Source of the DNA: Candidatus Poseidoniaceae archaeon
Lineage (GTDB): Archaea; Thermoplasmatota; Poseidoniia; Poseidoniales; Poseidoniaceae
Direction of reading: 5' to 3'
Length of the DNA stretch: 64,000 nt
NCBI GenBank assembly: GCA_949372655.1
Contig: CASIAI010000001.1
Location: 139,279-203,278, forward strand
The notes under the pieces were generated by a model, which saw only the letters and a program-made list of their open reading frames with translations, did no database searches and was not told the origin of the DNA. Both the position numbers and the translations under genes were made by a program. Shown here piece after piece: positions 14,969 through 52,164 of this stretch. Positions within the stretch are counted from its first letter, which is position 1. Every line of letters begins with the position of its first letter.

Positions 14969-16603
14969 ATGGTCAATAGTATACCGCGCCCTCCGACCCC
15001 TGTTAATGAACCAATTCTTGGTTACCTTCCAGGAAGTCCAGAACGAATTTCATTGAAAGAAGAATTAACTCGTCAATCAGGTGAAGTTATAGAAATACCT
15101 TGTATTATCAACGGTGTCGAAGTCTATACAAATAATGTTATTGAACAAGTTATGCCCCACAATCATAGCCATGTTATTGCAAGAGTTCACTTGGCTGGAG
15201 AAAACGATGTCAAGGATGCAATTAAGGCGGCCTTGGATGCACATGAAGCATGGTCAAGTATGCCTTGGGAAGCAAGAGCTGCTATTTTCTTGAAAGCAAG
15301 TGAACTATTAAAGGGGGAATATAGAGCTAAGATCAATGCTAGTACAATGATAAATCAATCAAAAACATGCCATCAAGCAGAAATTGATTCGGCTTGTGAA
15401 CTTATTGACTTCTGGAGATTTAATGCTGATTATGCACGTCAGATATATGAAGACCTACAACCACCTGTTTCTACTTCTAGTATGTGGAATTCAAGTGAAG
15501 TAAGACCATTGGAAGGTTTTGTTTTCTCTGTAACACCATTTAATTTCAGTAGTATTGCTGCTAACTTACCTTCTTCCGCTGCAATAATGGGTAATACAGG
15601 AGTATGGAAACCAAGTAGGAATTCCTATCTCTCAAATTACTACCTCATGCGCTTAATGATGGATGCTGGATTACCTGATGGTGTAATCAACTTCATCCCA
15701 GGAAAAGCTAGTATGGTTGGCGATATTTGCTTATCACACCCTATGTTAGCAGGTATTCACTTTACTGGCTCAACTTCAGTTTTTAGAAAAATGTGGAAAG
15801 ATGTTGCAGAGAATCTTCCAAATATGCGTTCATACCCTCGAATCGTTGGAGAGACTGGAGGGAAAGATTTCATTGTTGCTCATCCAAACTGTGACCAAAA
15901 GGCACTGATTGTAGCCCTATTAAGAGGGTCTTTCGAGTTCCAAGGTCAGAAATGTAGTGCTGCCAGTAGAGCATATATCCCTAAATCAGTATGGGATAAC
16001 ATCAAGGAAGAATATTGTTCTGAAGTCTCTAAAATTACAATCGGTGACCCAAAGGATTTCTCAAACTTCATGTCTGCAGTTATCGATAAAAAATCATTCG
16101 ATAATATCACTGGGTACATCGACAGAGCAAAGAAAGATTCTGGTTGTGAAATAGTCACAGGTGGAAGTTATGATGATTCTAAAGGCTATTTCATTCATCC
16201 TACAACAATAGTTTGTTCTGACCCCAATTATGAATCGATGAGTGAGGAAATATTCGGGCCTGTTCTATCAATTCACGTATATCCTGACCAAGAATTCGAG
16301 GAGGTTCTAAAAACCTGTGATAACACATCAGAATACGCACTAACAGGTTCTATTTTTGCCGCAAATAGAGAAGATATTGAAACCGCTAAGAAAGCTCTGA
16401 AATATTCTTGTGGTAACTTTTACATCAATGATAAGCCGACTGGGGCTGTTGTTGGCCAACAACCATTCGGAGGAGCGAGAGGTAGTGGAACTAATGATAA
16501 GGCTGGCTCACCCCTTAACTTACTAAGATGGGTAAGTCCTCGTTCTATCAAGGAGACTTTTGCACCACCACATGAGTGGACTTATGGTTTCCTAAACGAA
16601 TGA
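14969..16603 (+). CDS. pruA: L-glutamate gamma-semialdehyde (1-pyrroline-5-carboxylate) dehydrogenase
   Basis: Oxidizes glutamate semialdehyde to glutamate with NAD, the second step of proline catabolism. The whole 544-aa chain is collinear with the animal ALDH4A1-type enzyme as I remember it: NEPILGYLPGSPER at the N-terminus, LEGFVFSVTPFNF, IVGETGGKDF (general-base Glu region), FQGQKCSAASRAYIP (catalytic Cys) and the C-terminal NFYINDKPTGAVVGQQPF with GGARGSGTNDKAG. No proline dehydrogenase is adjacent. The start ATG follows msrA after 36 bases. The close match to the ALDH4A1 subgroup rather than to generic aldehyde dehydrogenases makes the substrate call fairly secure. Confidence 0.93.
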   Translation: MVNSIPRPPTPVNEPILGYLPGSPERISLKEELTRQSGEVIEIPCIINGVEVYTNNVIEQVMPHNHSHVIARVHLAGENDVKDAIKAALDAHEAWSSMPWEARAAIFLKASELLKGEYRAKINASTMINQSKTCHQAEIDSACELIDFWRFNADYARQIYEDLQPPVSTSSMWNSSEVRPLEGFVFSVTPFNFSSIAANLPSSAAIMGNTGVWKPSRNSYLSNYYLMRLMMDAGLPDGVINFIPGKASMVGDICLSHPMLAGIHFTGSTSVFRKMWKDVAENLPNMRSYPRIVGETGGKDFIVAHPNCDQKALIVALLRGSFEFQGQKCSAASRAYIPKSVWDNIKEEYCSEVSKITIGDPKDFSNFMSAVIDKKSFDNITGYIDRAKKDSGCEIVTGGSYDDSKGYFIHPTTIVCSDPNYESMSEEIFGPVLSIHVYPDQEFEEVLKTCDNTSEYALTGSIFAANREDIETAKKALKYSCGNFYINDKPTGAVVGQQPFGGARGSGTNDKAGSPLNLLRWVSPRSIKETFAPPHEWTYGFLNE

Positions 16604-16890: not shown

Positions 16891-16975
16891 ATCCGACGAC
16901 TTTTACTAACCAAATAAAAAGACATGTTTTTCTATTCATACGATGCCTTGATGTCTTAAGGCTACTAGGGTCAAT

Positions 16976-17043
16976 CCCGCTGTGATGACTGCTTTAGCCG
17001 AATGCTGTTTTTTCAGTGACGAGTGATGGGCGAACTGAGCGGG
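16976..17043 (+). ncRNA. candidate C/D box sRNA (2'-O-methylation guide)
   Basis: A 68-nt intergenic element carries all parts of an archaeal C/D guide in order. There is a terminal stem CCCGC (16976-16980) with GCGGG (17039-17043), box C GTGATGA (16982-16988), D'-like CTGT (17005-17008) and C'-like GTGACGA (17016-17022), then box D CTGA (17035-17038). The D guide is 12 nt (17023-17034) and the D' guide about 16 nt (16989-17004). The complement of the D guide contains UUCGCCCAU, which I recall from the archaeal 23S rRNA A-loop/helix 92 region. The terminal stem flush with boxes C and D would form the kink-turn bound by L7Ae. A separate small hairpin (16945-16962) lies upstream. Confidence 0.7.
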
Positions 17044-17107
17044 ACAAAATTGATTTCATTTTACCGTAATACAGTTGGTTTGAAGGCTTGAACCACTTAC
17101 GAGGTTC

Positions 17108-18547
17108 ATGCAGGGATTGGCTAAAACTCCACTTTCTCCTGCGCCCAACAACTTGTACTTATCTCAAACTTCATCTCGCTGGAAAACTGTAAGTTCAATG
17201 TTGGGTTTGGTAATTATTGTATTCTTCTTGGTACAGATTGCAGTTTTATCTGTATCTGGACTTATAGATTCCGACTTTAATGGAACATTAGGTCCTAGTG
17301 ACCCGTTTCAGGTGATTCTAGGCGCGGTTTGCTCGACGCCTTTCCTTTTACTTTTCATTATTCTGAGACGACCAAAATTAGCACATATCGTTAGAGTCGA
17401 GAATGTAGAAGTTGGTTCAACTGCACACCTAATTGCACCTGCAACTTTGATTCAAACACCATCTCAAACCTCTATTCAACATCACCTTGTCCACAATACT
17501 GGTCCGTTAGAAGTACCACCTCTCAAACATTTATGGATTATTTTCATTTTAGGAACTATTATCTCAACATTATGTATGTTACCATTATTATTTAATTCTT
17601 CAATATTCTCAATCTTACTATTTGTCTTGATAGCCATTCCCGCTTGGCTGATCGGATTCTCAACACCCGTATTTGCATGGTGGGCAACATCAAACGAGTA
17701 TTTTGGTCTCAAGACAACTAAGAGACAAGGTGAATGGATGTTAATTGCAGGTATGCTATCGACATTTCCCGCTCTAATCATAAATTCAATCATTTCACCA
17801 ATTATTATCAGTTTTCTGGGAATCAGTATGGACGGAGTACAAAGTCTCGGATATGGAATGATTCTATTTCTATCAGCTCCCATTGGAGAGGAACTGAGTA
17901 AAGCCGCTGCGATACTTTTCCTTGCAAGATTTATCGATTCCCCAAAGAGGGGTTTTCAAATTGGGTTTTCTGTTGGATTGGGCTTTGCACTTCTTGAGAA
18001 TATGATTTACATATTGAGTTCAATAGTAGTTGGTGAAGGAGCTGCCATCAGTTTCGTTTTAACCACTGTTCTAAGAGCGATTGGTTCAATACCTGGTCAT
18101 GCAACTTGGACTGCTATTACTGGATTTGCGATTGGCCACTACATTACAGAGAAAAAGAGAAATCAAGACATTATAAACGGTGTTCAGCAAACTAATAAAA
18201 GCGATAATGAGAGTCAATGGATATTGTTTGATAAGAAAACTGGAGCCCCGATTTCTAGTTCTAATGTAAATGTGGAACCAGTAATTCCAAAATGGCTAAG
18301 TGCTGGGGAAAATAATGCAATTCGGATGACTAAGTCACCTATAAGTGCTCTTTTGATAGCTATTTTTTGTCATGGAATGTGGAATGGTACAATGTGGGTC
18401 ACCAGTAAACTTTTGGTAAATGAGTCGTTATTATTTTCTTTTTTTATTGAGATGACTTTGGTAATTATTTTAATCATAATTCTATGGAGTGTTCTCAGAA
18501 GATTAATTCCTTATGCGATAAATGAACGGAATTCAACAATAATGTGA
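17108..18547 (+). CDS. PrsW-family intramembrane metalloprotease
   Basis: A 479-aa polytopic membrane protein with about nine hydrophobic segments. It shows the conserved PrsW/CAAX-like motifs: GEELSKAAAI (glutamate pair), LGFALLENMIYI (Glu-Asn), PGHATWTAITGFAIGH and a late FCHGMWNG whose histidine completes the metal site. PrsW proteins perform site-1 cleavage of membrane anti-sigma factors in Bacillus; in archaea the substrate is unknown. The first 140 residues are an extra region with two helices and a Thr/Gln-rich linker. The gene stands alone between the candidate sRNA and the DUF92 gene. Confidence 0.85.
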   Translation: MQGLAKTPLSPAPNNLYLSQTSSRWKTVSSMLGLVIIVFFLVQIAVLSVSGLIDSDFNGTLGPSDPFQVILGAVCSTPFLLLFIILRRPKLAHIVRVENVEVGSTAHLIAPATLIQTPSQTSIQHHLVHNTGPLEVPPLKHLWIIFILGTIISTLCMLPLLFNSSIFSILLFVLIAIPAWLIGFSTPVFAWWATSNEYFGLKTTKRQGEWMLIAGMLSTFPALIINSIISPIIISFLGISMDGVQSLGYGMILFLSAPIGEELSKAAAILFLARFIDSPKRGFQIGFSVGLGFALLENMIYILSSIVVGEGAAISFVLTTVLRAIGSIPGHATWTAITGFAIGHYITEKKRNQDIINGVQQTNKSDNESQWILFDKKTGAPISSSNVNVEPVIPKWLSAGENNAIRMTKSPISALLIAIFCHGMWNGTMWVTSKLLVNESLLFSFFIEMTLVIILIIILWSVLRRLIPYAINERNSTIM

Positions 18548-52079: not shown

Positions 52080-52164
52080 TGGCGCCGAGAGAGAGATTTG
52101 AACTCCCGTGTCCGAAGACAGTGGATTTCGAATCCACCGCAATACCGGGCTATGCGATCTCGGC
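52080..52164 (-). tRNA. tRNA-Ser(CGA), with encoded 3' CCA
   Basis: On the minus strand the acceptor arms GCCGAGA and TCTCGGC pair fully. The anticodon stem is GTGGA/TCCAC with loop TTCGAAA, giving anticodon CGA (codon UCG). A long variable arm (TGTCTTCGGACA) marks a type II tRNA, and the T-loop is GTTCAAAT. The discriminator is G and CCA is encoded at 52082-52080. No intron is seen. The 3' end lies 3 bases beyond the convergent PAC2 gene. Confidence 0.95.

Follow-up and report, generated by a model that had tools for sequence, protein, structure and literature searches.

The guides of archaeal C/D box sRNAs evolve fast, and conserved sites are often reached by convergent guides, according to PMC4644070 and PMC7994747. 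The A-loop of the 23S rRNA includes the residues U2552, G2553, U2554, U2555 and C2556 (PMC12123411). Two predicted sites in this loop, U2552 and C2556, are named in PMC4644070, according to which Methanococcus maripaludis has no site in the A-loop. The published 23S modifications of Haloarcula marismortui include Um2552 and Gm2553, and Cm2558 is not among them (PMC2584109). In the literature searched, no report of a guide or a methylation at C2558 was found; the supplementary tables of PMC4644070 may list this site.

In this work we analyzed a stretch of 64,000 nucleotides (the window) from a Candidatus Poseidoniaceae archaeon, whose genome assembly (1.58 Mb in 10 contigs) is 75% complete. The window carries an element that is very probably an archaeal C/D box sRNA that guides methylation of helix 92 of the 23S rRNA at C2519; more generally, it almost certainly encodes a small RNA that would put a methyl group on one nucleotide beside the tRNA-binding loop of the ribosome. 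This kind of RNA is already well known, but its guide proved to be shared by very distant archaea.

The element (Table 1) reads, in transcribed letters, UCCCGC-UG-UGAUGA-CUGCUUUAG-CCGA-AUGCUGUUUUUUCAG-UGACGA-GUGAUGGGCGAA-CUGA-GCGGGA, where box C starts with the G that precedes UGAUGA. A terminal stem of 6 bp brings box C and box D together. As in archaeal C/D box sRNAs, box C is of the RUGAUGA type and box D is CUGA, and box C' shows a single departure from the consensus RUGAUGA. The original prediction had placed a C/D box guide RNA between two genes: the terminal stem, the boxes C, C' and D and the 12-nt D guide that it claimed are all present, its intergenic position is borne out by the flanking genes, and the anatomy, the conservation among congeners and the pairing with the 23S rRNA support its reading of the element.

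Table 1. Features of the element and its neighbouring genes (window positions)
Feature	Position	Strand	Remarks
Whole element	16975-17044	+	C/D box guide RNA anatomy, length ~70 nt
Terminal stem, 5' strand (UCCCGC)	16975-16980	+	Covarying pairs, 144 copies
Box C (GUGAUGA)	16982-16988	+	UGAUGA invariant in 30 aligned congeners
D' spacer/guide (CUGCUUUAG, 9 nt)	16989-16997	+	Variable among the relatives compared; without convincing target
Likely box D' (CCGA)	16998-17001	+	Nearly all relatives have CNGA; in some it is CUGA
D'-C' linker (AUGCUGUUUUUUCAG)	17002-17016	+	Contains the alternative D', CUGU, at 17005-17008
Box C' (UGACGA)	17017-17022	+	Preceded by G17016; invariant in 30 aligned congeners
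D guide (GUGAUGGGCGAA, 12 nt)	17023-17034	+	N+5 position is G17030; conserved in other archaeal phyla
Box D (CUGA)	17035-17038	+	Invariant in 30 aligned congeners
Terminal stem, 3' strand (GCGGGA)	17039-17044	+	Covarying pairs, 144 copies
Upstream neighbour, aldehyde dehydrogenase family	14969-16603	+	PF00171, E 4.6e-103
Downstream neighbour, PrsW-type membrane protease	17108-18547	+	PF13367, E 1.7e-25

A DNA search showed that 32 of the 35 congeners carry the element, with matches at E ≤ 4.9e-18; another congener gave only a short and weak match (E 0.003), and two others, both incomplete genomes, gave no match in this search. In the 30 aligned congeneric copies the motif UGAUGGGCGAA is invariant, as are UGAUGA, UGACGA and CUGA, and the flanks and the D' spacer are variable. 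Loss of the boxes in close relatives, which the original prediction had named as its own refutation, was looked for, and the relatives keep them. The order of the genes is also preserved, given that a match to the PrsW protein lies beside all 30 copies and a match to the aldehyde dehydrogenase beside 28 of them. The terminal stem was examined in 144 distinct copies at the five pairs adjoining the boxes. Standard pairs occupy 98, 99, 99, 98 and 94% of the cells, and the Watson-Crick types number three at the first position and four at every other one; when one strand was slid as a control, pairing fell to 34-43%. Three of the 144 copies have poor stems, among them a match in Chryseobacterium; since this match is likely a chance hit, the stem serves as an internal control.

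The D guide pairs over 11 bp with positions 2515-2525 of the organism's own 23S rRNA (contig 3), with 10 Watson-Crick pairs and one G-U; from the base adjoining box D onwards there are nine Watson-Crick pairs, followed by the G-U and by a U-A. The guide thus falls within the 10-12 nt complementary to rRNA or tRNA, with a target at N+5, that characterize these RNAs, and the check proposed beforehand, pairing of at least 9 bp between the guide and the organism's own rRNAs, turned out positive. The target had been placed near the A-loop on the basis of a match to UUCGCCCAU; the location is right, and the letters that the 23S rRNA of this organism has there are GUUGUUCGCCCAUUAAAA. The fifth nucleotide upstream from box D faces C2519. 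Because the A-loop stretch U2552-G2553-U2554-U2555-C2556 corresponds to UGUUC in this rRNA, C2519 is equivalent to C2558 of Escherichia coli, which lies in helix 92 on its 3' strand, directly beneath the A-loop. The nucleotide expected to be methylated is a C, as had been anticipated. Some 3% of 12-mers drawn at random from the window score as well somewhere in the rRNA, so the weight of the target claim rests on conservation, and GUUCGCCCAUUAAA is intact in the 23S fragment of every relative that covers the target site. We regard the target of the D guide as well supported; transcription of the element and methylation of its target are predictions.

According to the mechanism that we propose, the terminal stem and boxes C and D would form a kink-turn bound by L7Ae, C' and D' would give a weaker motif inside the RNA, and the particle would be completed by Nop5 and fibrillarin. 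The D guide would then pair with the sequence 5'-UUCGCCCAUUA-3' in helix 92, and fibrillarin would methylate the 2'-OH of C2519, with the D' half probably acting as a scaffold and not as another functional guide. The genome contains an L7Ae-family gene, and the fibrillarin and Nop domains were not found in the available assembly. The idea that the C/D RNAs of this lineage do without fibrillarin or Nop5 was considered and rejected: fibrillarin is present in 85 of 100 relatives and Nop5 in 84 of 100, and in most relatives the two genes are adjacent. Since most relatives have both, their absence here is most likely a gap in the assembly.

The distribution of the guide was followed with a broad pattern (TGATGA, TGANGA and ATGGGCGAACTGA, with spacing limits) across 84,980 species. 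At least 116 stretches matched it, where our own arithmetic for random sequence gives an expectation of about 0.4. Among the matches listed, 78 of 80 are archaeal records, and these include Poseidoniales, other Thermoplasmata, Methanobrevibacter, Methanosphaera, Methanobacteriaceae, Methanothermococcus, Methanocaldococcaceae, Nanohaloarchaea, Diapherotrites and ainarchaeum. The two non-archaeal ones among them are the Chryseobacterium match mentioned above and a single-cell genome labelled as Deltaproteobacteria (JAOMAZ010000047.1). The latter carries a C/D RNA of the Poseidoniales type and presumably represents contamination. In six Methanobacteriales loci the same D guide accompanies a 12-nt D' guide that does not vary among them (ACCCUAUGAGCU), together with a canonical CUGA.

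A relaxed pattern, in which the last two letters of the guide were loosened and the C' requirement was dropped, was searched in 243 Thermoplasmatota genomes. It was present in 90 of them (the reversed-pattern control gave 0), including 59 of the 64 Poseidoniales genomes from both families, and it was absent from large parts of Thermoplasmatota. The guide is therefore not universal, and in line with this Cm2558 is missing from the modifications published for the 23S rRNA of Haloarcula marismortui (PMC2584109). In most genomes of the sister family of the Poseidoniales, the stem, box C and the guide AUGGGCGAU-CUGA are kept, and a hairpin stands in place of the C'/D' part. Compensatory changes in this hairpin, read by eye, include GAUGCC/GGCAUC, GAUACC/GGUAUC and GGUGCC/GGCACC. 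The RNA of the sister family looks like a single-guide C/D RNA, and the fact that it keeps the stem and the guide while replacing C'/D' supports the idea that the D half is the part held by selection.

The box D' of the original prediction fared worse. The 16-nt guide is there as letters only when CUGU at 17005-17008 is taken as box D', and the relatives favour CCGA instead; the 16-nt guide has no match of at least nine Watson-Crick pairs in the organism's rRNAs. In 58 distinct copies that bear the linker, the equivalent of 16998-17001 reads CCGA in 46, CGGA in seven and CTGA in two, and the remaining three have CTGA with an extra T; at the place of CUGU the same copies read CTGT (46) or CTGA (12). 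A genome from the same family shows a plain TGATGA-TGCCTTTTT-CTGA-TCTG-TGATGA arrangement. Measured from box C, CCGA lies at 9 nt and CUGU at 16 nt, and the consensus is a CUGA at 10-12 nt. CCGA is favoured for two reasons: the sheared pairs require a GA, which of the two places only the upstream one retains throughout, and a spacing of 9-11 nt is nearer to the canonical one. In our judgement box D' is thus quite probably CCGA. The linker contains UGCUG, which is invariant across the Poseidoniales copies that have a linker, and a few other Thermoplasmata also have CUGCUG. This linker motif could pair with 23S CAGCAG (2491-2496, some 20 nt upstream of the target of the D guide), but a role as an accessory guide was rejected: the pairing amounts to only 5-7 bp, CAGCAG is kept where the linker reads AUGCUG or the element is absent, and there is no covariation.

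It is conceivable, though unlikely, that the D' half, whether CCGA or CUGU serves as its box D', guides in its own right and is directed to a tRNA or another RNA, which would make this a dual-guide sRNA. Archaeal C/D RNAs are usually dual, box C' is invariant, and GCCGA and UGCUG vary little or not at all in the genus. However, the D' spacer varies among congeners, a convincing, coherent rRNA target was sought under both readings of D' and none was found, and the sister family has a hairpin in place of the D' half.

Less likely still, the particle could bind helix 92 chiefly to chaperone folding while the ribosome is assembled, with methylation incidental or absent. Such a role has been proposed for those archaeal C/D sRNAs whose two guides both pair with rRNA (PMC4644070), and helix 92 is structured and adjoins the peptidyl transferase centre. 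In contrast, a single convincing guide was found here, and box D and the N+5 register show the strict conservation that methylation requires. The conserved position upstream of the PrsW-type gene leaves a further alternative, a cis-acting kink-turn in the 5' leader of this gene that is bound by L7Ae and is not a separate guide RNA, considering that L7Ae has been proposed to regulate some mRNAs through kink-turns (PMC5539422). We consider it very improbable, given that a regulatory kink-turn requires neither box C' nor a guide complementary to the 23S rRNA, and that the same guide RNA occurs at a methanogen locus and a Thermoplasmata locus without a PrsW match.

A scan of both strands of the 64 kb for RUGAUGA, TGANGA 18-55 nt further on and, after 8-14 nt, CTGA, returned this element as the single strict candidate; first-order Markov shuffles gave 0.03 candidates per strand per 64 kb, and not one of 200 shuffles yielded a candidate with a stem of at least 4 bp. 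The folding energy of the element is uninformative (z -0.63). The bare pattern TGATGA..TGANGA..CTGA was discarded for counting C/D genes in whole genomes, where its matches mostly resemble Asp/Glu-rich coding sequences. Such patterns do arise randomly, seemingly in coding DNA of this kind above all, but that the motifs here are a chance arrangement of short sequences has a negligible probability and is already refuted by a stem that covaries, boxes that are invariant between diverging flanks and a guide that crosses phyla.

With a methylation guide as the preferred reading, the distant copies may reflect shared descent or convergence; archaeal guides do converge, according to PMC4644070. As a broader interpretation, to which we give an even chance, an old archaeal guide would have been retained, or would have evolved more than once, in Thermoplasmatota, methanogens and DPANN, and the element would be its representative in Poseidoniales; the 2'-O-methylation that it directs, at the position of E. 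coli C2558, has apparently not been reported before. Its D guide and stem would have been held and its D' half rebuilt; in the sister family, where a hairpin takes the place of C'/D', the RNA would be effectively single-guide. A D guide that is kept nearly letter for letter across several archaeal phyla and is aimed beside the A-loop would mark one of the few methylations that are not given up by mesophilic archaea. The prediction concerns a single nucleotide, Cm2558, and cultured methanogens carry the same guide.

Compared with the archaeal C/D box sRNAs described so far (PMC4644070, PMC7994747), the element is alike in its length of ~70 nt, its terminal stem and boxes C, C' and D, and its 12-nt D guide with rRNA complementarity from box D onwards. 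It differs in that D' is probably CCGA and not CUGA, the D'-C' linker is extended, and the D' side has no convincing target; its D guide is also conserved far beyond the descriptions of fast-evolving guides. At the Rfam gathering thresholds the only match of the window is a tRNA gene (52083-52164, minus strand), and the element lies below every threshold. Its best match is sR2 (RF01139), with 22.8 bits against a threshold of 42, so by the rule of Rfam the copy of the window is not a member of this family. Copies from Methanocaldococcaceae and Methanothermococcus with the identical D guide, ATGGGCGAA-CTGA, do pass, with 47-55 bits; in contrast with sR2, the D' half and the linker of the window copy are unrelated, and the D guide of the sR2 consensus, GUgGAUGGCgGcu, has other letters. 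The systems that act on Um2552 in the A-loop, i.e. RlmE, RlmR, yeast snR52 and the predicted sR25 of Pyrococcus (PMC2584109, PMC12123411), share with the proposed function of this element the ribose methylation of helix 92 in the large-subunit rRNA. Those systems modify U2552, whereas the guide of the window points six nucleotides further on, to C2558 in the 3' arm of the stem.
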